From a virus: a DNA stretch of 20,089 nucleotides. Position numbers and translations under genes: made by a program. The notes under the pieces are model-generated. The model saw only the letters and a list, made by a program, of their open reading frames with translations, made no database searches and had not been told where the DNA came from. The stretch is from positions 1 to 20,089 of the IMG/VR virus record IMGVR_UViG_3300027467_000592. One strand, written 5' to 3'. This document shows, one piece after another, positions 1,361-17,740 of this stretch (position 1 is the first letter of the stretch; each line of letters starts with the position of its first letter).

Positions 1361-2011
1361 ATGGCCCAGGCAAACGCGCACAACGAACGCGACCTCGGCG
1401 GAGACCGCGCAACGACCGCCGCGCAAATGAGCGCGAGAGAGCGCGCGGCGCAGGCGTTGCATCTGCGGTCGCTGCGGTGGAAGTACGCGGACATTGCGCG
1501 GGAGCTCGGCTATCGGACGACCTCGGCGGCGTTCAAGGCGTGCGAGCGTGCGATGAAGGAGATCACGAAGGAGCCGGCGGAGGCGCTGCTGCGGCAGGAG
1601 CTGGAGTCGTTGGACGTGATCGAGCGGGAGGCGTTGTCGGTGCTGCTGGACGTGTCGGCGTCGGGGAAGCGGCCGTCTCCGGGTGTGCGGCTCCGGGCGA
1701 TCGACCGGGTGTTGCGGGTGAAGAAGCAGCGGGCGGAGTACACGGGGATTGCGGATCTCCGGGCGAAGGGGCCGGACATGTCGGCGGTGGCGGCATCGCT
1801 GGGGGCGCTGGTGGCGGCGTCGGTGGAGTATGCGCAGCAGGTCGATGCGGATCAGTTGCGGCGGGAGGCGGCTGAGGGTATCGGGGTGCAGCCGGGGCCG
1901 GCGGTGGAGGATGCGGAGGCGGAGGAGCGGGCGCGGGCGGCGCGTGCTGCTCGGCGTGCGCGGCGCGCGGCAAAGGCGGCGGCTGAGGTCGGGGAGGCGG
2001 GGCAGGGGTGA
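1361..2011 (+). CDS. terS: Terminase small subunit
   Basis: 216 aa. ATG at 1361 is preceded by GGAGG at 1347-1351, a 9-nt spacing. Terminase small subunits bind the phage packaging site and hand DNA to the large subunit. Residues 25-70 contain a helix-turn-helix-like segment (RERAAQALHLRSLRWKYADI, then ARELGYRTTSAAF), typical of the DNA-binding domain of this family. A central helical region, residues 73-135, would form the oligomerisation core. The C-terminal 50 residues are Ala/Arg/Glu-rich and likely disordered or large-subunit-binding. The stop overlaps the GTG of the large subunit gene (GTGA at 2008-2011). The family assignment rests on HTH, size and position. From here on codons are strongly G-ending, unlike the C-rich stretch before it. 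Confidence 0.85.
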   Translation: MAQANAHNERDLGGDRATTAAQMSARERAAQALHLRSLRWKYADIARELGYRTTSAAFKACERAMKEITKEPAEALLRQELESLDVIEREALSVLLDVSASGKRPSPGVRLRAIDRVLRVKKQRAEYTGIADLRAKGPDMSAVAASLGALVAASVEYAQQVDADQLRREAAEGIGVQPGPAVEDAEAEERARAARAARRARRAAKAAAEVGEAGQG

Positions 2012-3345
2012 CGCTCTCGCTGGAGCAGCAGCGGCTGTCCCCGAAGCAGCTGCGGAGCCTCGGGGCGGCGCTGGGGCGCGTGAACTTGTGGACGGGCTCG
2101 ATCAGGTCGGGCAAGACCTACGTTTCGCTCCTCGCGTGGATCGCGTTCATCGCCACGCTGCTGGACACGCCGCCCGGGGGTGAGCTGGTCATGGTCGGGC
2201 GCACCCGGGACTCGCTGTTCCGCAACGTGTTCGCCCCGATCGCGTCGGAGCCGTCGCTGGCCTGGCTGGCGGCGATCGTGAAGTACCGCAACGGGGCGCC
2301 GACTGCGACGATCCTGGGGCGGGTCGTCCACGTCCTCGGCGCGAACGATGCGCAGGCCGAGGCGAAGATCAGGGGCATGACCGTCGCCGGCTGCTACGTC
2401 GATGAGGTCACGGTGCTGCCAGCGGCGTTCTTCAAGCAGCTGCTGGGCCGCATGAGCGTGGCCGGCGCGCGCATGTTCGCCACGACGAACCCGGACAGCC
2501 CGGCGCACTGGCTGAAGGTGGACTACCTGAACCCCTACGCGGCGGGGCAGCTCGCGGAGTGGCGGGTGTTCCACTTCGTGCTGGAGGACAACCACGCGCT
2601 CGATCCGGGCTACATCGCGTCGATCAAGGCCGAGCACTCGGGCCTCTGGTACGACCGGTACATTCTCGGCCGCTGGGTGGCCGCGTCGGGTGCGGTGTTC
2701 GGCATGTGGGACCCGACCCGGCATGTGATCCCGTGGGCGACGGTGCCCCCGATCCGCACGCTCCTCGCCGTCGGCATGGACTGGGGTGCGGTGAACGCCT
2801 CGGCGGCGCTGCTCCTGGGCCTGACCCGCGAGTGGATCGACGGGGTGCTGCGGCACCGGCTGATCCTGGTGGACGAGTTCAGGCACGACTCGCGGAAGCA
2901 GCAGCGGCAGCTCACAGACGGCGAGCTCTCGGCGCAGTTCCGGGCCTGGCTGAACGGGCCGCACTTCCCCGAGGGGCACCACGCGAACGGCATGCGCCCC
3001 AGGTTCGTGGTGCTCGACCCGGCGGCGGCCGGCTTCCGGGAGCAGCTGGTGCGCGACGGCGTGAACGTGTGGAAGGCCGACAACGGGGTGCAGCGCGGCC
3101 TGTCCCTGATGGGGTCGCTGCTCGCGCATGAGCGGCTGATCGTCACCGACCGCTGCCCGGGGTTCATCCAGGAGGCTCCGGGGTACGCCTGGGACGAGAA
3201 GAAGGTCGAGCGCGGCCGGGAGGAGCCGGTGAAGGTCGCTGACCACTCGCTGGATGCTGGCCGGTACGCGGTGCTCACGACCGAGCAGTTCTGGCGGCCG
3301 CAGCTCGACTGGCCGGAGTCGCTGATCACGAAGGAGGCCGCATGA
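2008..3345 (+). CDS. terL: Terminase large subunit (packaging ATPase/nuclease)
   Basis: 445 aa from GTG at 2008, overlapping the small subunit stop by four bases. The protein is the ATP-driven DNA-packaging motor that docks on the portal and cuts the concatemer. The N-terminal ATPase has Walker A GSIRSGKT (about residues 30-37), Walker B CYVDE (129-133, catalytic E133) and a coupling-motif-like FATTNPDSPAHW (157-168). The C-terminal RNase H-like nuclease shows acidic candidates in GMDWG (D258), VVLDPAAAG (D337) and ADHSLDAGRYA (D412/D416). Length and motif order fit the PBSX/SPP1-type terminase family. It is complete, and its stop overlaps the next ATG. Confidence 0.96.
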   Translation: MTLSLEQQRLSPKQLRSLGAALGRVNLWTGSIRSGKTYVSLLAWIAFIATLLDTPPGGELVMVGRTRDSLFRNVFAPIASEPSLAWLAAIVKYRNGAPTATILGRVVHVLGANDAQAEAKIRGMTVAGCYVDEVTVLPAAFFKQLLGRMSVAGARMFATTNPDSPAHWLKVDYLNPYAAGQLAEWRVFHFVLEDNHALDPGYIASIKAEHSGLWYDRYILGRWVAASGAVFGMWDPTRHVIPWATVPPIRTLLAVGMDWGAVNASAALLLGLTREWIDGVLRHRLILVDEFRHDSRKQQRQLTDGELSAQFRAWLNGPHFPEGHHANGMRPRFVVLDPAAAGFREQLVRDGVNVWKADNGVQRGLSLMGSLLAHERLIVTDRCPGFIQEAPGYAWDEKKVERGREEPVKVADHSLDAGRYAVLTTEQFWRPQLDWPESLITKEAA

Positions 3346-3461: not shown

Positions 3462-3775
3462 GCGACGACGGCTTCGACCTGTCCCGCCTCGGTGAGCGTT
3501 CGCCGGCGGAGGTAGAGTTCGATGAGGCCCGCGCCGAGCTGGGCCGGGCGGTGCAGCGGGCGCTGCGGGCGCAGCTGCGACTCGCCGCCGAGGACGGGGA
3601 AGCGTTCGATGGGGACGAGACACCGCTAGCCTGGCTGGTGTCGGTCGCGTACTCCTCGCGCCTGATCGAGTCGAACGATCGGTGGGCGGGGGCCGCGGCG
3701 GTGATCGTGCCCGACGGGCAGATGCGGGTCGCCAGCTATGGTTTGGCGCACGATGCGGTGGATCTCACTCGATGA
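3458..3775 (+). CDS. Hypothetical protein, 105 aa
   Basis: Starts at the ATG overlapping the previous stop; no strong Shine-Dalgarno sequence is visible, consistent with coupling. The N-terminal 50 residues are acidic/basic and helical (PAEVEFDEARAELGRAVQRA). The C-terminal half (LAWLVSVAYSSRLI, then AAAVIVPDGQMRVASYGLAH) looks like a small alpha/beta fold. There are no Cys or catalytic motifs I recognise. It lies between terminase and endolysin; its function is not predictable from sequence alone. Confidence 0.72.
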   Translation: MSDDGFDLSRLGERSPAEVEFDEARAELGRAVQRALRAQLRLAAEDGEAFDGDETPLAWLVSVAYSSRLIESNDRWAGAAAVIVPDGQMRVASYGLAHDAVDLTR

Positions 3776-3788
3776 AGGGAAGCACACC

Positions 3789-4736
3789 ATGAGCACGAAC
3801 GGACGACTGCCGGCCTCGGCCCTGACCTCGATCGGTGGCGGGAAGCGGCTGGAGCACGCGAGCGCGGCGCAGTTCAAGCTGCTGACCGCGGCAGTGAAGA
3901 AGGCGACCGGGCGGGCGCTCACGGTGAACTCGGCGTATCGCACCTACGCGGAGCAGGCGGCGCTGTGGAACGGCGGGAAGAACAAGCTCGCGGCCGCGCC
4001 GGGGTACTCGAATCATGGGCTGGGTAAGTCGGTGGACGTGAACCGCACGGGCAGCGACACCCGCTACCTGTCGGCGCTCGACGCGCTCGCCGGCCTCTAC
4101 GGCTTCGTCCGGGACGTGGCGAACGAGTCCTGGCACTTCACCCGGCGTATCCCGGCGGCGATCACGGACAGCTCGGGGCGGATGATCCCCAGGGTGCCGG
4201 CGGCGACGGCGAAGCGCTCGAGCGCGTACTCGGATCGGGCGGCACAGCTCCAGGCGCTGCTGAACGTCGGCCGGCTCTGGGGCTGGTACGGCGGCGGGGC
4301 GCTGCTGGTCGATGGTCGGTTCGGTGCGGCGACCGAGGCGCAGCTGCGGCGCCTGCAGGGCTTCCTCGGGGTGAGCGTCGACGGGGTGTTCGGGCCGGTG
4401 ACTCGGGCGGCGGTGGTGAAGGCCGTGGATGCTCGGGTCGCTGCCGAGGCGGGCACGGGTGGCGGCACGACTCCGACGGCTCCGGCTCGGCCGAAGAAGC
4501 CGAAGCTGCCGACGGCGACGCTGCGGCAGGGTTCTTCGGGGACGCAGGTGCGGCGCTGGCAGGAGTTCCTGAACTGGGCGCGCACCGTCGGGATCGTGAA
4601 GGGCGATCGCCTGGTGCTCGACGGCAAGTTCGGGCCGGCGACGGACAAGGCCACGCGCGCGTTCCAGCGGGCGCGGAAGATCGGGGTCGACGGCATCGTC
4701 GGCCCGCAGACTCGGGCAGCGGCGAAGGCTGCGTGA
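3789..4736 (+). CDS. Endolysin: M15 (VanY-like) peptidase with two peptidoglycan-binding domains
   Basis: 315 aa. ATG at 3789 is preceded by GAAGGGA at 3774-3780; an earlier in-frame ATG at 3738 lies inside the previous gene and is rejected. Peptidase M15 enzymes cut peptide bonds in the peptidoglycan stem or cross-bridge. Zinc ligands are visible as H76 and D83 (SNHGLGKSVDVN) and H116 with catalytic E113 (ESWHFT). The upstream SAYRTYAEQAALW is typical of the family. Two PG_binding_1-type domains follow, about residues 148-212 and 243-312, each with paired DGxFGxxT / DGxxGPxT motifs, joined by a Gly/Thr/Pro linker (222-240). It acts on the host wall at lysis. There is no signal peptide, so it needs a holin, but none is recognisable nearby. 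Its place between terminase and portal separates it from a standard lysis cassette. Confidence 0.92.
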   Translation: MSTNGRLPASALTSIGGGKRLEHASAAQFKLLTAAVKKATGRALTVNSAYRTYAEQAALWNGGKNKLAAAPGYSNHGLGKSVDVNRTGSDTRYLSALDALAGLYGFVRDVANESWHFTRRIPAAITDSSGRMIPRVPAATAKRSSAYSDRAAQLQALLNVGRLWGWYGGGALLVDGRFGAATEAQLRRLQGFLGVSVDGVFGPVTRAAVVKAVDARVAAEAGTGGGTTPTAPARPKKPKLPTATLRQGSSGTQVRRWQEFLNWARTVGIVKGDRLVLDGKFGPATDKATRAFQRARKIGVDGIVGPQTRAAAKAA

Positions 4737-4901: not shown

Positions 4902-6782
4902 ATGGATCAGGAAGCGCCGCTCACGGGACTGCCCGGCGAGGATGCTGCGGGGCGGGCGTGGCCGCCGAAGTGGATGGGGCCGGCACTGCTGCGGATGCAG
5001 GAGCACGACGCGCTCTACATCGGCACCCCCGAGCTGTTGTCCGGGGTCTACAGTGACGGGTCGCCGCAGATGGTGGCCCGCCAATCGCAGTATGCGGGAG
5101 GAATCGTCGGCTGGGCCTCGCGAATGTGGTGGGGTCGCCCGGTGGATCGGTCGAAGCGGAGCATGGCGCGCCTGCACCTGCCGCTGCCGTCGGACATCGC
5201 GACGGCCTCGGCCGATCAGCTGTTCTCGGAGGCTCCCCGCATCGTGATCCCGGATGCGTCGGAGGTCGCCGATGTCGAGGCCGAGCGGCAGGCGCTGGAT
5301 GCCGGCGAGCGTCCGAAGCGCGTGAAGGAGACCGCCGAGCAGCAGCTGCTGGAGCGCGTGGTGAACACGCCGGCGACGCACACCGTCCTGCTGGAGGCCG
5401 GTGAACTCGCGGCCGCGCTCGGTGGCGCGTATCTGCGGCTGGTCGTGGACACGGTGGCGCTCGATCACGTCGAGGTCGAGGCCGTCGATGCGGATGCGGC
5501 GGTGCCGGAGTTCCGCCACGGCCGCCTGGTCGCGGTCACGTTCTGGCAGGTGGTCGAGCGTGAGAAGAAGGGCGCGGTCTGGCGGTGGCTGGAGCGGCAC
5601 GAGCCGGGCATGATCGCGCACGCGCTCTACCTCGGCACCGAGGACCGGCTGGGTGTGCGCGTCCCGCTCGATCGGCAACCGGCGACCGAGTGGCTGGCGC
5701 GGGCGATCACCGACGGCCGTCAGCGAGCGCAGGGTGCGACTCGGGGCGCGATCCGCTGGGAGGAGGACGACCAGGCGGCGGTGCTGCGCATTCCGGGCCT
5801 GACGGGGCTGACGGCGGAGTACGCGCCGAACATGCGCCCGAACCGGGAGTTCCGCCGCGACCCGATGCTGCGCGACTTCGGCCGCTCCGACTTCGCCGGC
5901 ATCGAGCAGGCGTTCGACGCGATCGATGAGGCGTTCAGTTCCTGGCTGCGCGATATCCGACTGGGCAAGGGCCGCATCATCGTACCCGAGGAGTACCTGG
6001 ACAACCTCGGCGCGGGCCGGGGGTCGGCGTGGGACTCGGAGCGTGATGTCTACGACGGCGTGAAGATGCTGTCGAACGACCCGGCGAACACGTTCCAGCT
6101 GCGGCAGTTCGAGATCCGCGCGGAGGTGCACGAGCGCTCGATCGCGGAGTGGACGCGGTGGGCGCTGCGCTCGGCCGGGTGGTCGCCGGGCACCCTCGGC
6201 GAGGCCGGGGCGCGCTCGATGCGGACGGCAACAGAGGTCGCGGCGGACGAGAAGCAGTCGGAGCGCACCCGAGACAAGAAGGCGAACTACTGGCGCGAGG
6301 CGCTGACTCGGCTGGTGCGCACCTGGGTGGAGCTGCAGGTCGCGGTCTACGGTGACGGGCCGGAGGGGTCGGTGCAGCTCGCGCGGTTCGTGGAGCCGGT
6401 GGAGGTGCGGTTCCCGGCGCAGGCGCAGCAGGACATGGAGGTCGCGGCGCGGATCGCGACGATGCTGCGGGGCGCGAAGGCGGCGTCGACCATGACGCTG
6501 GTGCGGATGCTGCACCCCGAGTGGGACGGCGGCACTGTGAACGAGGAGGTCGAGCGCATCCTCCAGGAGCAGGGCGGCGGCGCGGCCGAGGACCCGGCGG
6601 AGTTCCGGGGCGACTTCGTGGAGCTGGTCGAGCAGATGAACGCAGCGTCCGAGCGGGAGCTGGAGGAGGCGGAGCAGGCTGCGTCGGCTCCTGGGTCGCG
6701 GCGCCCACCGGCCGAGCTCGCGGGCCAGGACGAGGCTGCGCCCGCGCCGCGCCGGCGGACTCGCACGCGCCGGGGGGAGTAG
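4902..6782 (+). CDS. Portal protein
   Basis: 626 aa. ATG at 4902 follows GAGAGGA at 4888-4894. Portal proteins form the dodecameric ring at the unique capsid vertex through which DNA enters and leaves. The sequence has the actinophage portal look: WASRMWWGRP (about 71-80), HLPLPSDIATASADQLFSE (92-110), a DHVEVEAVDAD... beta region near 185-195, and the EYLDNLG segment near 365. The long helical C-terminus ends in an acidic coiled-coil-like stretch (ERELEEAEQAAS) and a basic tail (RRRTRTRRGE). It best fits the SPP1 gp6-like superfamily and is longer than SPP1 gp6 (about 500 aa), mostly in the C-terminal tail. It sits directly before the MuF-like gene, the canonical order. Confidence 0.92.
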   Translation: MDQEAPLTGLPGEDAAGRAWPPKWMGPALLRMQEHDALYIGTPELLSGVYSDGSPQMVARQSQYAGGIVGWASRMWWGRPVDRSKRSMARLHLPLPSDIATASADQLFSEAPRIVIPDASEVADVEAERQALDAGERPKRVKETAEQQLLERVVNTPATHTVLLEAGELAAALGGAYLRLVVDTVALDHVEVEAVDADAAVPEFRHGRLVAVTFWQVVEREKKGAVWRWLERHEPGMIAHALYLGTEDRLGVRVPLDRQPATEWLARAITDGRQRAQGATRGAIRWEEDDQAAVLRIPGLTGLTAEYAPNMRPNREFRRDPMLRDFGRSDFAGIEQAFDAIDEAFSSWLRDIRLGKGRIIVPEEYLDNLGAGRGSAWDSERDVYDGVKMLSNDPANTFQLRQFEIRAEVHERSIAEWTRWALRSAGWSPGTLGEAGARSMRTATEVAADEKQSERTRDKKANYWREALTRLVRTWVELQVAVYGDGPEGSVQLARFVEPVEVRFPAQAQQDMEVAARIATMLRGAKAASTMTLVRMLHPEWDGGTVNEEVERILQEQGGGAAEDPAEFRGDFVELVEQMNAASERELEEAEQAASAPGSRRPPAELAGQDEAAPAPRRRTRTRRGE

Positions 6783-6785
6783 CCG

Positions 6786-7925
6786 GTGGCTGGCCCGTGG
6801 CGGGTCGCGGCTCCTGACCTGGTGGAGCTGACGGATCGGTGGGCGCGCTCGGTGCTCGATGGTCTGGCCAGGGCTGAGCAGTTGCTGGTGGCGCGGACGT
6901 GGCGGCGCATCACTCGGGGGCTGGCCGGGGTGGACTCGGAGGCGGAGCGCGCGCGGGTGCTGGCCGCGCTCGAGGCCGATGTTCGGCGTCTCATGATCGG
7001 CATGTCCCGGGAAGCTGCGGCCGCGCTGATCACGGCGGCGGGCCGGGCGGGCACGGCGCAGGCTGTCGCGGGTCTGGGCCTCGGCGGTGGCCTGGGACGC
7101 TCGGTCATGTCGCCGAGCATGGCACAGACGGCGGCGATCATCGCGGGCGACCTGTGGTCGAAGTTCGATGACGTGACGCGGCGCGTGCTGCGCTGGACTG
7201 AGGACGCGATCGACGTCTACCAGCAGGTCGTGGCCCCGGCGGCGACGTTGCGCACGATCGGGCTGGCATCGACGGACGAGGCGCGGCGCGCGGCCCTCGC
7301 GGACTTCCTCGAGCGGGGTGTGACGGGTTTCACGGATCGGCGGGGCCGGCAGTGGACGATCGGGGCGTACACCGAGATGGCGGTGCGGACGGCCTCGGCG
7401 CGGGCGTACACCGAGGCGAGCACGGCGCGGATGCAGGAGGCCGGCGTGGGGCTGGTGTCGATCCTGACGAACGCCGATGCGTGCTCGGTGTGTGGGCCGT
7501 GGTCGGGGAAGGTGCTGACGATCGGGGCGGGCGCGACGGGGCCGCGCATCGTGGAGGGGCCGGACGGGTCGCCCATGACGATCACGGTCGACGGGTCGCT
7601 CCAGGATGCGCGAGCGGCCGGCTGGGGGCACCCGAACTGCGCCTGCACGATCGCGGCATATGTCCCGGGCTTCGCGGTGCCGGTGGCGGCGCAGGGCTAC
7701 GATCCGACGGCGGAGCGGATGCGGGAGCAGCAGCGGGCGCTGGAGCGGCGGAAGCGTGCGCTGGGGCTGCGTCGGGAGCTCGCGCTGGCGCAGGGCGACG
7801 ACATGGAGGCGGCCCGGTTGCGGCGGCGTATCCGCGACACCGAGGCGCGCCTGCGTGAGTTGGTGGCCGCGTCGGGGCAGAAGCGCCGGTACGACCGGGA
7901 GCAGGCGGGTTGGGCGACGGGCTAG
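6786..7925 (+). CDS. MuF-like minor capsid protein (Phage_min_cap2 type)
   Basis: 379 aa from GTG at 6786, three bases after the portal stop. Proteins of this class (Mu gpF, SPP1 gp7) bind the portal, are packaged inside the head, and help assembly or DNA ejection. The diagnostic motif is present: CSVCGPWSGKVL (C233, C236), then GWGHPNCACTIAAYVPG (H282, C285, C287), a likely metal-binding core. The N-terminal 200 residues are helical, with Leu/Ala-rich segments that would contact the portal. Residues 305-379 form a highly charged Arg/Glu coiled coil. No toxin or enzymatic domain is fused at the C-terminus, unlike some MuF proteins. Confidence 0.9.
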   Translation: MAGPWRVAAPDLVELTDRWARSVLDGLARAEQLLVARTWRRITRGLAGVDSEAERARVLAALEADVRRLMIGMSREAAAALITAAGRAGTAQAVAGLGLGGGLGRSVMSPSMAQTAAIIAGDLWSKFDDVTRRVLRWTEDAIDVYQQVVAPAATLRTIGLASTDEARRAALADFLERGVTGFTDRRGRQWTIGAYTEMAVRTASARAYTEASTARMQEAGVGLVSILTNADACSVCGPWSGKVLTIGAGATGPRIVEGPDGSPMTITVDGSLQDARAAGWGHPNCACTIAAYVPGFAVPVAAQGYDPTAERMREQQRALERRKRALGLRRELALAQGDDMEAARLRRRIRDTEARLRELVAASGQKRRYDREQAGWATG

Positions 7926-8952: not shown

Positions 8953-9891
8953 ATGGCGAACGCATTCGCTACCCCGGACGTGATCGCGCAGCGCGCGCTC
9001 GCGTCCCTGATCAACCAGTCTGTCATGCTGCCCCTGGTCTACCGCGATGTCGAGAGCGACTTCGCGCGGGCCAAGGTCGGCGATACCGTGAACGTGCGCA
9101 AGCCGGCGGTGTTCGAGGCCAAGCCGTTCAACCGCGCCTCGGGCATCGAGATCCAGGACATCACCGAGACCACCGTGCCGGTGGTGCTCGACCAGTTCTG
9201 GGACGTGTCGTTCGCGATCACGGCCGAGCAGTTCGCGCTGGAGGTCGATCAGCTTCAGGAGCGGGTCATCAACCCCGCTATGGAGGCGATGGCTCTCGCC
9301 GTCGACCTGTCGATCCTGAGCCTGTGCGACGACATCACTAACGAGGTCGGCCAGGGTCCGAATGGCACCCCGCCGAGCGCGCACACCTACAACGATCCGA
9401 AGGTGCTGATCGACGCGGGCAAGGTGCTGAACGACTACGCGGTGCCCCAGGCGGGTCGCAACGCGGTCGTTGGCACCCAGGGCCAGGCCGACTGGCTCGC
9501 GACCGATACCCTGGTCAACGCCGGTGCCGCCGGTGACACCCTGGCTCTGCGCCAGGCGTCGCTCGGTGCCGCGCTGTTCGGCTTCCGCCCGTACTGGACC
9601 CAGAACATCAAGGGTCCGGCCGCGGGTTCCATCCCGGAGCCGGGCGACAGCCTGACCGAGGTCGGCGTGGCCTTCCACCCGACCGCCTTCGCGTTCGCCT
9701 CGGCGCCCCAGGAGCTCGCTCCGGGTGCGACCGGCTCGGTGCAGGACTTCCGCGGCCTCTCGCTGCGGGTGACCTGGGACTACGAGCAGCGGGCGAAGCA
9801 GACCATCTTCTCGGTGGACCTGCTCTGGGGGGTCAAGACCCTCGACGCGAACCGCGCGGTGCTGATCAAGGGCGCCGACGAGGAGTCCTGA
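8953..9891 (+). CDS. Major capsid protein (P22 coat-like, HK97 fold)
   Basis: 312 aa. ATG at 8953 follows GAGAGGAAG near 8935-8943. The sequence fits the P22 gp5-like coat family. The N-terminal VMLPLVYRDVESDFARAKVGDTVNVRKPA matches its pattern (an arm, then 'G.tV.vr.P'), followed by ITETTVPVVLDQFWDVSFAI and the spine-helix-like QLQERVINPAMEAMALAVDL. The C-terminal half has RVTWDYEQRAKQTIFSVDLLWG, where a P-loop or tail strand is expected. At 312 residues it is shorter than P22 coat (430), consistent with lack of the telokin-like insertion domain. Codons are highly biased (C/G-ending, GAG, AAG), as expected for the most abundant virion protein. A strong terminator-like hairpin follows directly. 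Confidence 0.93.
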   Translation: MANAFATPDVIAQRALASLINQSVMLPLVYRDVESDFARAKVGDTVNVRKPAVFEAKPFNRASGIEIQDITETTVPVVLDQFWDVSFAITAEQFALEVDQLQERVINPAMEAMALAVDLSILSLCDDITNEVGQGPNGTPPSAHTYNDPKVLIDAGKVLNDYAVPQAGRNAVVGTQGQADWLATDTLVNAGAAGDTLALRQASLGAALFGFRPYWTQNIKGPAAGSIPEPGDSLTEVGVAFHPTAFAFASAPQELAPGATGSVQDFRGLSLRVTWDYEQRAKQTIFSVDLLWGVKTLDANRAVLIKGADEES

Positions 9892-9897
9892 TCGGCG

Positions 9898-9941
9898 GCC
9901 CCGCCGGCGGCTCGGCTCGCTCCCGTAGCCGTCGGCGGGGC
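9898..9941 (+). terminator. Strong hairpin terminator after the capsid gene
   Basis: GCCCCGCCGGCGGCT (9898-9912) pairs with AGCCGTCGGCGGGGC (9927-9941): 15 bp with a single G-U pair and a 14-nt loop, starting seven bases after the capsid stop. Only TT follows the stem, so it is an actinobacterial-type terminator with a poor U-tract, probably partial, since the downstream genes need readthrough or another promoter. Confidence 0.75.
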
Positions 9942-9985
9942 TTCCCCGTATCTGGTCGATCGACACGCTGAGGAGGCACACCGGC

Positions 9986-10927
9986 ATGGATATCGTGTTC
10001 GTGGTCAGGGAGGGGGCGAACGAGGAGCTGCGGCACGCTCTCCGCTCGGTGGAGAGGTTCGTGCCGCATGATCGCGTCTGGATCGTTGGGGGCGGCCCGG
10101 AGTGGCTGCGCGGGGTGGAGCGGATGCGGCTGCCGCAGTCGAAGTCGAAGTACGAGGCGACGACGCGGAACCTGCTGGCGATCGCGGAGCACCCCGACCT
10201 GTCCGAGGACTTCCAGTACTGGAACGATGACTTCTTCGCGCTGCGGCCGGTGCCGGCGGCGGGGCCGGAGCCGATGCATCGGGGCACGGTCGCGTCGGTG
10301 CTGGCCGACTACCGGGCGCGGCTCGACACCGAGTCGCACTACGTCCGGGGCATGGACGCGACACGCTCGGCGCTCCTCGAGGCGGGGTTCGGGGAGCCGT
10401 TGTCGTGGGAGGCGCACGTCCCGATCGTGCTGAACCGGAAGCTGCTGCGCGAGTCGCTGCTCTGGGGTATCGAGCACGTCCGGGCGCCGGTCGTCCACAA
10501 GCGCACAATCTACGGGACGCTGGCCGGCCTGGAGGGGCGCGAGATCGCCGACCCGAAGGTGAACGACGTGGAGGGCTGGGTGGGGTCGGCGTCGGGCTGG
10601 TGCTCGACGTCGGATGCGGTGTTCCAGCATGGTGTTGCGGGGCGGGTGCTGCGCGACATCTTCGCGAGCCCGTCGCGGTTCGAGCAGCCGGTGGGCGAGC
10701 GCGCGGCACGCTCGGCGGCTCCGCAGGTGCTGTGGCGGCACAAGCTGACCGGGCGGGTGGTGCGTGGCGGGGAGCGGAAGTTCGCGCATATGGCCCGGTG
10801 GGAGCGGCTGGGGTGGGAGGAGTCCCGGGCCTGGGAGGCGCAGGAGCGCGCGGATCGGGCGCTGGCGGCGGCGAGGGCGGCCCAGGAGGCCGCTGAGGGT
10901 GTACCGGCCTACCAAGGCCGGGCGTAG
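9986..10927 (+). CDS. Stealth-type glycosyl/hexose-1-phosphate transferase
   Basis: 313 aa. ATG at 9986 follows AGGAGG at 9971-9976. The N-terminus MDIVFVV (1-7), then ELRHALRSVERFVPHDRVWI (14-33), then EHPDLSEDFQYWNDDFFALR (68-87) matches the order of conserved regions CR1 and CR2 of Stealth proteins, with the hallmark NDD at 80-82. WEAHVPIVLNR (141-151) resembles CR3 with its His. Family members transfer sugar-1-phosphate from a nucleotide sugar to a glycan, and related enzymes act as glycosyltransferases. Residues 246-280 look like a separate small module and residues 280-313 like an Ala/Arg/Glu helix. Its place between capsid and neck genes suggests a virion protein as acceptor, but acceptor and sugar are unknown. 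Alternatively it modifies host wall polymer. Confidence 0.75.
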   Translation: MDIVFVVREGANEELRHALRSVERFVPHDRVWIVGGGPEWLRGVERMRLPQSKSKYEATTRNLLAIAEHPDLSEDFQYWNDDFFALRPVPAAGPEPMHRGTVASVLADYRARLDTESHYVRGMDATRSALLEAGFGEPLSWEAHVPIVLNRKLLRESLLWGIEHVRAPVVHKRTIYGTLAGLEGREIADPKVNDVEGWVGSASGWCSTSDAVFQHGVAGRVLRDIFASPSRFEQPVGERAARSAAPQVLWRHKLTGRVVRGGERKFAHMARWERLGWEESRAWEAQERADRALAAARAAQEAAEGVPAYQGRA

Positions 10928-10966: not shown

Positions 10967-11221
10967 ATGGCGACGAGGATCGAGCTGCCGGGTGTGCAGC
11001 GTGGTGAGCGGAGGATCGCGGGCGTGCTGTTCGTGGACGGGGTGGCGCGGGGTGCCCGTGTCGGGCCGAACGCGACGCGGCGGCTGCTCGACCTTGGCGC
11101 GCAGTTCATCCCCGAGGAGGAGCCGACGGTGGAGCCGGTCGAGGTCGTGCTGCCGGAGCCGGCCGGGATCGGTGTGGCCGCGCCGGTCGAGGACGTGCCG
11201 TCGGCGGACGAGGAGTCCTGA
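10967..11221 (+). CDS. Small acidic head-module protein, 84 aa
   Basis: ATG at 10967 follows GAGAGGACGAGG near 10951-10963. Residues 15-50 (RIAGVLFVDGVARGARVGPN then TRRLLDLGAQF) form a compact beta-rich unit with a 'dG.A...gpN..r.L..lGa.fi' pattern seen in small proteins behind actinophage capsid genes. Residues 51-84 are an acidic Pro/Val/Glu tail ending ADEES, the same last residues as the capsid protein. It may be a decoration or head-completion protein; no firm family call. Its 3' end carries the GAGGAG that serves the next gene. Confidence 0.75.
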   Translation: MATRIELPGVQRGERRIAGVLFVDGVARGARVGPNATRRLLDLGAQFIPEEEPTVEPVEVVLPEPAGIGVAAPVEDVPSADEES

Positions 11222-11223: not shown

Positions 11224-11631
11224 ATGGCGCGGGTGTACGCGACGGTCGCGGAGGCTCGGGCGCTCTCGGGGCTGCCGCTGACGGATGAGGCGGCGGCGGC
11301 GCATGATCTGCGGCGTGCGGCGCGGCTGATCGACCGGGTTCTGCTCTCGGCGGTGTACCCGGTCGATGCGGACGGCTACCCGACGGACGAGGCGCTGCGG
11401 GAGCTGCTGCGCGACCTCTCGGCGGAGCAGCTGGTGTTCTGGGACGAGACCGGGGATGCGACGGGCGCGACGGTCGGCGGCTCAGGCGGCTCGATCGGTG
11501 ACGTGTCGCTGCCGGGCGGGAACTCGGCGAAGCCGTCGCCGGATGATCGGCAGCGGGCGCGGCTCTCGCCGGACGTGGCGGACACGCTGCGCTCCAGCGA
11601 GCTGGTGCGGTTCCGGGTGGCGGGGTACTGA
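11224..11631 (+). CDS. Head-tail connector (adaptor) protein
   Basis: 135 aa. ATG at 11224 lies three bases after the previous stop, using GAGGAG at 11210-11215. The opening MARVYATVAEARALSGLPLTDE plus the helical segment AAHDLRRAARLIDRVLLSAV is characteristic of HK97 gp6 / SPP1 gp15-type head-tail adaptors, which form a ring below the portal. The second half has ALRELLRDLSAEQLVFWDE, a Gly/Ser loop (GGSGGSIGDVSLPGG), and an ending VRFRVAGY seen in this family. Position immediately before stopper and gp10-like genes agrees. Confidence 0.82.
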   Translation: MARVYATVAEARALSGLPLTDEAAAAHDLRRAARLIDRVLLSAVYPVDADGYPTDEALRELLRDLSAEQLVFWDETGDATGATVGGSGGSIGDVSLPGGNSAKPSPDDRQRARLSPDVADTLRSSELVRFRVAGY

Positions 11632-14401: not shown

Positions 14402-17400
14402 GTGGGCGGTTTCGACGTTGGCGAGCTTGTCGCCAGCATTCGGCTTGACGGCATCGACGCCTACAACCGTGGCCTCGATCAGGCGGAGCAGCGGCTGCGC
14501 TCGACCGACGTGCAGTCGGAGCGGACGAGTTCGCGCCTGAACTCGATGATGACGGGCGCGGCTGCGCTCACCACGGCCGCGACGGTCGCCCTCGGCGCCT
14601 ACATCGCCGGCCTGGCCCGGGTGGGCCTGGAGTACAACCAGCTGCAGCAGACGTCGAGGGCGGCACTGAACGCGATTCTCGGGTCAACCGAGGCCGTGAA
14701 CGAGCAGATGGCGCAGCTCGATGCGTTCGCGGCGACCTCGCCGTTTGCGAAGTCGGTGTTCATCACCGCGCAGCAGCAGATGCTGGGCTTCGGCATCGAG
14801 GCGCGGAAGGTGATCCCGTACCTCGACGCGATCCAGAACACGACGGCGGCGATCGGCGGCAACAACCAGACGGTCGCCGAGCTGACGTTCATCATGGCCC
14901 AGATCTCGGCGGCGGGGAAGATCACCGGGCAGGACCTGATCCAGTTCGGGCAGCGCGGTGTCAACGCGGCCGAGCTGATCGGCTCTCAGATGGGAAAGAC
15001 CGGCGCCCAGATTCGTGCGGACATCACCGCTGGCGCACTCGATGCGAACGATGCGCTCGACGCGCTCGCGGCCGCGATGCAGGAGCGGTACGGCGCGGCA
15101 GCCGAGAACGTGAAGAACACGATCGTGGGCGCGACGGACCGGATCAAGGCCGCGTCGCGCGACATCGGCGCGCTGCTCGCGGCACCGTTCGTGGACCCGC
15201 AGGGCGGCGGCTACTTCGTGACCTGGGGCAACCAGGTCGCGGACAACCTGCGGCAGCTCCAGCGGCTCACGGGGCCGATCGTGGAGGCGCTGGAGCGTCG
15301 GGCGCTTCCGGCGATCGTCGGCATTACGCGGGGTCTGGACTCGATGCGGGTGCAGCTGAACGCGGTGTCGGTGGACGACCTCGAGCGGGGTTTCTCTCGC
15401 CTCGCCGAGCATGCGCCAGCGGTCGGTGCGCTCGCGGGTGCGGTGTTCGGGCTGTCCACGAACATGCTGAACAGCATCCCGGTGATCGGGACCTTCGCTC
15501 GAGTGTTCGCGCCGATCCCGACGGCGCTCGCGGCGGCGGCGCTCGCGTCTCCGGAGCTGCGGGACGCACTCGGGGGACTCCTGGAGGAGTTGCGGCCGCT
15601 GCTGACGATCGTGGGGCGTGTGGCGGCCCTGTTCTCGGACGGGCTGAACGTGGCGATCCCGATCGCGACTGGGGTGGTGCGCGCGCTCGCGGTCGTGGTG
15701 GGGCCGATTGTGGACTTGCTGACGGCGATCCCTGCCCCGGTGCTCGCTGCCGTCGCGGCGTTCGTCGGGATGAACCGTGTCGCGCCGCAGGTCCTGGGTT
15801 TCTTCCGCGATGCGCGGTTCGCGGTCACGCACTTCCTCGGCCAGATGGGGCTGCTCCAGGGGCAGACGGCGATGGTCGGTGCCTCGCTCGCGACGGGGGC
15901 GACCCAGGCCGGTCTGTTCTCGCGTGCGGTGTCGGCGGCTGGCAACGCGCTGAAGGCCGCGTTCGTGTCGAACCCGGTGGGGCTGATCGTGACGGCGCTG
16001 GCGACGGCGGTGGGGCTGCTCACCTGGGCGTTCACGGCGAACGCGGAGGCCGCGCGGGAGCAGCAGGAGCGGGTGGATGCGCTCAAGGGGACTCTGACCG
16101 AGACGTCGGGCGAGGTCACCCGGGCGACGCAGAAGATGGTCACCGATGCGCTGCGGCCCGCGGCGGAGGGGTTCGCGCTGATCGGTTCCTCGGCGGAGGC
16201 GGCCGGGCAGGCTGTCACGGGTTCGGCGCGGCAGCAGGCGGCGCTCCTCGAGGCGATTCGGCTCCGGGCGCAGGACCTGGGCGACGCATACCGGGCGCAG
16301 GCCGAGGCGGCGGGCGGAGCGACGAAGCTGAGCGGCGACGTTACGCGGGCGTACTACGCGGAGTCCGAGGCGCTGCGGCAGGCGCGGGATGCGGTGATCG
16401 AGCAGGCGGAGGCGATCAATGCGGCGCGGGAGCAGCGGCGCGCGGAGATCGAGATGGTGCGCGAGTACCAGAGGAGCTTGGACGATGCTGCGCGGTCGAA
16501 TGCTCGGCTGAACGAGTCGGTGGAGATCGCGCGCGATGCCTACGAGGATGCGGGGTCGCGGCTCCGGGCGCTGAACCAGGCGCTGGACGAGCTCTCGGGC
16601 GGGTCGAGGTCGGCGGCGCAGGCCGAGCGCGACCTGAATGAGCAGACGGATCGGCTCGCGGCGGCGTTCTCGGAGACCGACAGCAAGGGGCGGAACCTCG
16701 CGCGCAGGCTGGTCGATGCGTCGGGCGCGATCGATACCACGTCGGTCGCGGGCCGGCGCATGTTCGACACGGTGGATGGTCTGAACACTCAGATGCAGCA
16801 GGCGCTGATCGAGGCTGACCGGCTCGCGAAGGCGAACGGTGAGGTCGGGCTGAGCTTCGAGGAGGCGAACGCGGTGGCGGCCCCGTACATCGACTCGCTG
16901 CGTGAGGTTGGCCGGGAGGCGGGCCTGTCCGACGAGCAGATTGAGGGCATGATCGGGAAGATGCTGGCGGTGCCGACCACGGTGTCGTTCCTGCTTACGG
17001 ACAACGGGTCGATCTCGGAGAACGACCAGGCGCTGCTGTCGATCGTGAACCAGCTGCAGACGATCCCGACGGGCACGATCCGGCTGCAGAACCAGTCGCC
17101 GGAGGTCCTGGAGGCGCTGCGGGAGCTGGGGTTCACTGTCGAGGAGCTGCCTGAGGGTGAGGTCGAGATCACGTCGAACGACGAGGCGATCGGCGCGGCG
17201 CTCGACATCCTCTCGAAGAAGATCGAGGAGCTGCCGCCCGGGGTGGTCGAGGTCGAGACTGACGGGGTGCCGGAGGCTGAGCGGGAGCTGAACCATCTGG
17301 CTCGGGATCGGGTGGCGGTGATCCGCACACGGGTGGAGCAGGCGAACGGCGGAGTCGTGGTGCCGCGCGCGGATGGTGGCATTCACTCGGTCGGGCGGGT

Positions 17401-17740
17401 GGTGCCGGCGGCGAGCGGGCGCCTGCGGGAGCCGCAGATCGTGCCTGGCGGGTCGAACATCCTCTGGGGTGAGCCGGAGACGTTCGAGGAGGCGTACATC
17501 TCGCGGAAGCCGGCGGCGCGCGCCAGGAACGAGGCGATCCTCGATCGGGTGGCGGGCTGGTTCGGTGGCGAGTACCTGCCCGAGGGTGAGGCGGGGCGGG
17601 CGTCGATGTTCCGCGGTGGCGACACGTTCCAGGCGACGTTCCAGCTGGCCCCGGTGCCGGGGCTATCGCCGGAAGCTCAGGCGCTCCGCGCGGCGGACGC
17701 GCTTATGGTCAAGACGGCAGCGAGGAGGCGACGTGGCTGA
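14402..17740 (+). CDS. Tape measure protein
   Basis: 1112 aa from GTG at 14402, with GGGAAGGGAG at 14386-14395 upstream. It sets tail length and is ejected with DNA. N-terminal features match the tape measure N domain: residues 1-45 (GELVASIRLDGIDAYNRGLD), a hydrophobic segment 52-76, then SPFAKSVFITAQQQMLGFGI (about 113-132) and KITGQDLIQFGQRGVNAAEL (about 178-197). Further hydrophobic stretches lie near 424-457 and 523-545 (VGLIVTALATAVGLLTWAF), and long coiled-coil helices span about 550-780. The C-terminus carries VVPRADGGIHSVG and the actinophage-type ILWGEPETFEEAYISRKP ending. At 0.15 nm per residue the tail would be about 165 nm. The stop overlaps the next gene's start region by eight bases. 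Confidence 0.95.
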   Translation: MGGFDVGELVASIRLDGIDAYNRGLDQAEQRLRSTDVQSERTSSRLNSMMTGAAALTTAATVALGAYIAGLARVGLEYNQLQQTSRAALNAILGSTEAVNEQMAQLDAFAATSPFAKSVFITAQQQMLGFGIEARKVIPYLDAIQNTTAAIGGNNQTVAELTFIMAQISAAGKITGQDLIQFGQRGVNAAELIGSQMGKTGAQIRADITAGALDANDALDALAAAMQERYGAAAENVKNTIVGATDRIKAASRDIGALLAAPFVDPQGGGYFVTWGNQVADNLRQLQRLTGPIVEALERRALPAIVGITRGLDSMRVQLNAVSVDDLERGFSRLAEHAPAVGALAGAVFGLSTNMLNSIPVIGTFARVFAPIPTALAAAALASPELRDALGGLLEELRPLLTIVGRVAALFSDGLNVAIPIATGVVRALAVVVGPIVDLLTAIPAPVLAAVAAFVGMNRVAPQVLGFFRDARFAVTHFLGQMGLLQGQTAMVGASLATGATQAGLFSRAVSAAGNALKAAFVSNPVGLIVTALATAVGLLTWAFTANAEAAREQQERVDALKGTLTETSGEVTRATQKMVTDALRPAAEGFALIGSSAEAAGQAVTGSARQQAALLEAIRLRAQDLGDAYRAQAEAAGGATKLSGDVTRAYYAESEALRQARDAVIEQAEAINAAREQRRAEIEMVREYQRSLDDAARSNARLNESVEIARDAYEDAGSRLRALNQALDELSGGSRSAAQAERDLNEQTDRLAAAFSETDSKGRNLARRLVDASGAIDTTSVAGRRMFDTVDGLNTQMQQALIEADRLAKANGEVGLSFEEANAVAAPYIDSLREVGREAGLSDEQIEGMIGKMLAVPTTVSFLLTDNGSISENDQALLSIVNQLQTIPTGTIRLQNQSPEVLEALRELGFTVEELPEGEVEITSNDEAIGAALDILSKKIEELPPGVVEVETDGVPEAERELNHLARDRVAVIRTRVEQANGGVVVPRADGGIHSVGRVVPAASGRLREPQIVPGGSNILWGEPETFEEAYISRKPAARARNEAILDRVAGWFGGEYLPEGEAGRASMFRGGDTFQATFQLAPVPGLSPEAQALRAADALMVKTAARRRRG

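Follow-up and report, generated by a model that had tools for sequence, protein, structure and literature searches.

The stretch of DNA analysed here (the window) comprises 20,089 bases of the IMG/VR virus record IMGVR_UViG_3300027467_000592, a fragment of an actinophage-like siphovirus that includes its late operon. A terminase gene (2008-3345) and a portal gene (4902-6782) are followed by genes for a MuF-type head protein (6786-7925), a scaffold and a major capsid protein of the P22 coat type (8953-9891, plus strand; PF11651, 2.2e-29; phrog_283, 2.7e-58). Between terminase and portal there is an endolysin-like gene encoding a VanY peptidase and peptidoglycan-binding repeats (3738-4736), an unusual location for a lysin. 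The capsid protein is 51% identical to that of Gordonia phage Morgana, and the nearest capsid proteins of named phages, from Gordonia, Streptomyces and Corynebacterium phages, show 45-51% identity. An open reading frame of 313 codons (9986-10927, plus strand) begins 94 nt after the capsid gene, with a ribosome-binding site, GAGGAGG (9970-9976, plus strand), 9 nt before its ATG. It is followed by a small head gene encoding 84 amino acids (10967-11221, plus strand), similar small genes occurring in the same order in three other loci (L102, L149 and L163), by a head-tail adaptor gene (11224-11631, plus strand; phrog_541, 2.8e-8) and, further on, by the tail tape measure gene (14402-17740).

In the gap between the capsid gene and this reading frame a simple scan found neither a promoter-like site nor an intrinsic terminator. 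The gene lies directly behind the major capsid gene within the late head operon, as the original prediction had it. Just 3' of the capsid stop codon there is a long GC-rich hairpin lacking a T tract (9897-9942, plus strand; RNA fold of -58.3 kcal/mol for the region), which could possibly act as an attenuator lowering downstream expression, albeit with a z-score of only -2.0 it is weak evidence, not clearly beyond chance. The GC content and codon use of the gene resemble those of its neighbours, and it thus shows no sign of recent import; since a second metagenome contig (L007) encodes an identical protein (100% identity), neither is it an assembly accident of this contig.

The original prediction took the gene product for a Stealth-type transferase on the basis of four motifs, all of which are present in the order proposed: MDIVFVV (amino acids 1-7), LRHALRSVERFVP (15-27), QYWNDDFF (77-84) and WEAHVPIVLNR (141-151). 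The conserved regions of the family are retained to different extents. Conserved region 2 (CR2), spanning amino acids 12-90 (10019-10255, plus strand) and ending in the NDD metal motif (amino acids 80-82, 10223-10231), was the sole Stealth region detected in a Pfam search of the protein, without a match to CR3, and its score (PF11380, E = 1.8e-6, 28.6 bits) lies below the Pfam gathering score of 39.4; a search of NCBIfam returned nothing useful. The same CR2 model is nevertheless matched separately by each of 54 aligned relatives. The CR3 equivalent, consisting of H144-x-P146 (10415-10423) and R173 (10502-10504) and thus spanning 10415-10504 on the plus strand, emerges from HMM-HMM alignment, in which these residues match His956 and Arg986 of the human enzyme. 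The CR4 equivalent, amino acids 205-233 (10598-10684, plus strand), ends in FASPSRFE and aligns in a global HMM comparison with canonical Streptomyces Stealth proteins, the Pfam CR4 model itself being matched by only three of the 54 family members (best value 0.079). Of the CR1 motif DxVYTWVDGxD, DIVF alone aligns in the HMM alignment, TWVDG and the segment behind it being absent. Hence the claimed set of conserved regions stands as regards CR2, by Pfam, and CR3, by alignment, whereas CR1 is reduced to a remnant and the profile check on CR1-CR4 detects CR2 alone, below its gathering score.

At the level of the whole family the profile evidence goes beyond chance. A profile of the phage family matches the zebrafish (1.8e-8), human (4.4e-7) and Drosophila (2e-5) GNPT proteins as well as CpsY (3e-6), and its HMM-HMM alignment with canonical Streptomyces Stealth proteins extends over 221 columns (E = 2.3e-12). 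The AlphaFold2 model of the protein has a mean pLDDT of 88, exceeding 90 over most of the N-terminal domain; in Foldseek searches the top PDB matches are Stealth enzymes, with CpsY at 1.6e-10, and in structural alignments, which list GT-A proteins only, eight Stealth entries reach Z scores of 16.8-18.6 over 206-229 residues (within amino acids 1-236), the next GT-A protein scoring 11.6. The model thus has a GT-A fold in the Stealth arrangement, and on this point the original prediction is borne out, with Stealth enzymes as the best matches and the catalytic Asp, His and Arg invariant. The domain concerned, amino acids 1-234 (9986-10687, plus strand), corresponds to the complete domain of a phage family, PHROG 7999 (1.3e-54), which is listed as of 'unknown function'. 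Its relatives occur in 47 phage records, where they are annotated as hypothetical proteins, and a scan of viral contigs confirmed at least 409 of them. The protein is a divergent, compact Stealth homologue belonging to this phage subfamily, and is not filed as a canonical member because the TWVDG of CR1 and the sugar-binding Glu are missing.

What such a protein might do depends on its active site. In human GNPT His956 is catalytic and Arg986 binds phosphate, while E389 (corresponding to E305 of CpsY) contacts the hydroxyls of GlcNAc; the key residues of GNPT/CpsY comprise R322, E389/E305, N406/N322, D408/D324, H956, R986/R419 and N1151 (PMC11418123, PMC10668966), the pairing of the two enzymes being our own, derived from alignments. 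Counted over the 54 aligned family members, R8, at the position of GNPT R322, is kept in 42, N80 of the NDD motif in 52, and D81 and D82 in all; likewise H144 (equivalent to H956), P146 and R173 (equivalent to R986 and to CpsY Arg419) are each invariant, as are S207 and E233. The position of the metal-ligand Asn is occupied by S207-T208, Ser/Thr replacing it in most of the phage family, and the sugar-contacting Glu has given way to L, V, M or I in each of the 54. From the invariant active-site residues we would expect the enzyme to be probably active. Since the Glu is hydrophobic throughout and the Asn is mostly Ser/Thr, the donor and the chemistry may differ from those of GNPT, and on sequence grounds neither a particular donor sugar nor even phosphate transfer is to be assumed.

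The loss of the Glu and of part of CR1 would also be in keeping with a catalytically dead Stealth fold with a structural role in the head or neck, a notion to which the adjacency to capsid genes and the fusion of some relatives to head-protein domains, described below, lend some colour. We regard this as improbable, given that the NDD aspartates, the His and the Arg are invariant in 54 diverse members, including those encoded far from head genes, and that many members lie within clusters of glycan genes.

The Stealth-like domain does not account for the entire protein. Amino acids 235-313, encoded together with the stop codon at 10688-10927 (plus strand), form a separate C-terminal extension, which the original prediction missed and which has no match in Pfam or PHROG; one phage match to it was dismissed as meaningless. 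For comparison we drew on 80 viral loci that encode related capsid proteins, in 61 of which a small protein, here termed gp8, starting roughly with 'xYRNxNTGxVVE...RLExLxNWERL', is encoded near the end of the capsid gene. The window has no separate gp8 gene, and the extension occupies the gp8 position, before the 84-amino-acid gene with its likely counterparts in the three loci mentioned above. It also weakly resembles gp8 in sequence ('TGRVV...ARWERL'): with one profile none of 2000 shuffles scored as well, and with a broader profile 171 of 20000 reached the score, so that the similarity, clear in the one case and modest in the other, is taken as suggestive only.

Among these capsid-related loci a Stealth gene was found in the window's own virus only, none being found, for example, in the L148, L155 and L102 records; the same place is used by other glycan enzymes. 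In five loci (L125, L148, L151, L155 and L156), whose capsid proteins are 45-47% identical to that of the window, a glycan cassette is inserted between the capsid gene and gp8 (5933-9167 in L148). It consists of genes for a GT-B enzyme (PF13524), which starts 0-44 nt after the capsid stop codon, a probable nucleotidyltransferase (our own reading of a gene lacking a Pfam match), an FkbM protein and a GT2-like transferase, the N-terminal part of which resembles GT-A glycosyltransferases (Z 12.4) in a modest model of mean pLDDT 62. In four of the five cassettes, the fifth (L125) being cut by the end of the contig, the GT2-like reading frame extends into gp8 without a change of frame (domain E 5e-19 to 5e-24); it contains an internal Shine-Dalgarno ribosome site and ATG, and may therefore yield both the fusion and free gp8. 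The GT-B of L125 is homologous to a GT-B found beside Stealth-like genes in freshwater phages (2.8e-20). A further arrangement is observed in L141, L154 and Streptomyces phage Keanu, where a shortened FkbM-like methyltransferase and two small uncharacterised proteins are encoded between the capsid gene and gp8. Phages seem to exchange glycan-modifying enzymes in the slot behind the capsid gene.

The genomic settings of the Stealth-like genes themselves are diverse. We grouped the relatives at 65% identity into 38 clusters and inspected their neighbour genes; several of the query proteins used were chosen from the loci by eye, and the counts are therefore descriptive and carry no test. A capsid gene lies within 150 nt of the Stealth-like gene in six of the 38 clusters (the window, L016/L018, L023, L015, L031 and L063), these being independent lineages whose capsid proteins are of the P22 type, the HK97 type and others, and within 1.5 kb in nine. 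Within 5 kb there is a structural gene in 18 clusters, another glycan gene in 15, and one or the other in 28. In L016/L018, a lineage separate from that of the window, a single fusion protein joins the Stealth domain to a head-tail connector domain (phrog_2322, 2.3e-12 and 3e-13), and in L015 the Stealth-like protein, encoded behind an HK97-type capsid gene, bears another long extension. In TurkishDelight and in Streptomyces prophages the order is tandem GT4 enzyme, major tail protein and Stealth-like gene, while in freshwater phages the latter has for neighbours two GT-B enzymes together with an epimerase (3.7e-58) and an FkbM methyltransferase. As to individual loci, gp20 of TurkishDelight (L002, 9119-11155) is a single protein with two glycosyltransferase domains of the GT4 type, its gene lying between those for the capsid and the major tail protein; L056, L050, L084 and some 30 near-identical freshwater contigs have epimerase, two GT-B, GT2-like and FkbM genes around the Stealth-like gene; and in the Streptomyces genomes L093-L096 a Stealth-like gene of the phage type adjoins tail genes in apparent prophages.

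Other relatives are placed differently. In cluster K mycobacteriophages the homologue lies upstream of the terminase gene; in the Gordonia phages OneUp and Yvonnetastic it adjoins WhiB/SSB genes, in Microbacterium phages it sits after rIIB and in Gaia it is found in the right arm, in these last four cases among early or middle genes and without glycan genes nearby. The original prediction had reasoned that a late gene ought to modify the virion, possibly masking it, and not the host surface. As a stand-alone proof this argument is ruled out by the homologues placed elsewhere; the preference for the virion rests instead on the comparative link to virion and glycan genes.

The same early-gene neighbours, in several phages, would suit an enzyme which, from the cytoplasm, modifies a host surface polymer such as wall teichoic acid, capsule or cell-wall glycan, for instance to block superinfection or to aid release. 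Those Stealth enzymes that are known from bacteria work on capsule or wall glycans, and canonical Stealth genes above the family cut-off are present in 20 of 61 sampled Streptomyces genomes (two Streptomyces genomes searched with Stealth_CR2 gave none, nor did 14 controls, the wider Streptomyces sample being positive). Nevertheless, the location in the head module both here and in many relatives, where the gene abuts unrelated types of capsid gene or is fused to connector domains, and the presence of other transferases in the same slot make a host-surface role unlikely. Glycosylation of modified bases in the phage DNA, or of another small intracellular acceptor, might be entertained for the homologues near DNA-replication genes, but we recognised no genes for base modification in the window, and in most clusters the placement and the partners are capsid or glycan genes; we would give this very little credence.

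Computation establishes the fold, the homology, the conservation of the active site and the genomic slot, which other glycan enzymes occupy in relatives. The link between phage glycan enzymes and virion genes that would be looked for in a virion-glycosylation system is apparent in the six capsid-adjacent clusters, the 15 of 38 with glycan genes and the slot transferases. On balance we favour, with somewhat better than even confidence, the view that the gene encodes a sugar or sugar-phosphate transferase directed at the virion. This reading draws on the Stealth-specific matches in structure and profiles, the invariant D81, D82, H144, P146 and R173, the adjacency to capsid genes across capsid types, the glycan neighbours, the slot transferases in relatives and the connector fusion in L016/L018. 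It is weakened by the homologues that isolated phages carry among early or middle genes with no glycan genes close by, by the replacement of the Glu and Asn, by the weakness of the match between extension and gp8 and by the fact that no separate glycan genes were seen within the 20 kb window, itself a fragment.

According to this virion-directed reading, the product would be a compact GT-A enzyme of the Stealth type, soluble and cytoplasmic, which takes a sugar, probably as sugar-1-phosphate, from a nucleotide-sugar and transfers it, presumably during head assembly, either to a structural protein of the phage or to a glycan that other enzymes have begun on such a protein. The metal held by the NDD motif (D82) would bind the donor diphosphate together with R8 and R173, and activation of the acceptor hydroxyl would fall to H144. 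Through its C-terminal tail, which takes the position of the small protein normally encoded after the capsid gene, the enzyme may be directed to heads under assembly. A more elaborate version, which we put forward only tentatively, is that a compact phage subfamily of Stealth enzymes attaches phosphosugars to capsid or neck proteins as a phosphodiester-linked glycan, being delivered by fusion to the small post-capsid protein in a slot that swaps unrelated transferases.

Stealth enzymes build capsules in bacteria and tag lysosomal enzymes in human cells. If the proposal is true, enzymes of bacterial capsules and animal lysosomal targeting extend to the viruses of bacteria. A phage protein family listed as unknown, with members in several hundred viral contigs or more, would thereby gain a testable function; the post-capsid exchange slot would help predict which phages have decorated particles, and such decoration bears on the way in which phages are seen by hosts and immune systems. 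The Stealth family is known and so is virion glycosylation, and it is their combination that appears to be new: our literature search found no paper describing Stealth proteins in phages, papers on cluster K phages yielded nothing on gp6, and BFVD already names giant-virus proteins Stealth.

With the canonical Stealth sugar-1-phosphate transferases, such as M. tuberculosis CpsY, animal GNPTAB and bacterial capsule polymerases, the phage protein has in common the GT-A fold, the ELRxxLRS and NDD of CR2, the His-x-Pro and Arg of CR3, a putative CR4 ending in FPxPSxxE and alignability over the 221 columns. It differs in its core of about 230 instead of about 310 amino acids, in a CR1 devoid of TWVDG, in scores below the Pfam cut-off and in the exchange of the sugar-contacting Glu for a hydrophobic residue and of the metal-ligand Asn for Ser/Thr. 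The actinophage proteins of PHROG 7999, for example TurkishDelight gp22 and Fionnbharth gp6, share the Stealth-like domain, to which the window protein adds the 80-amino-acid C-terminal extension. As to virion glycosylation, this is known to be carried out by phage enzymes in the mycobacteriophages Che8, Corndog and Myrna (Freeman 2023, as cited in PMC12363180, PMC11256854 and PMC12691614), and here too a phage-encoded transferase is proposed to decorate capsid or tail proteins. These citing papers do not present the mycobacteriophage glycosyltransferases as Stealth-type, and the enzyme of the window is set apart from those systems by a possible phosphosugar linkage.
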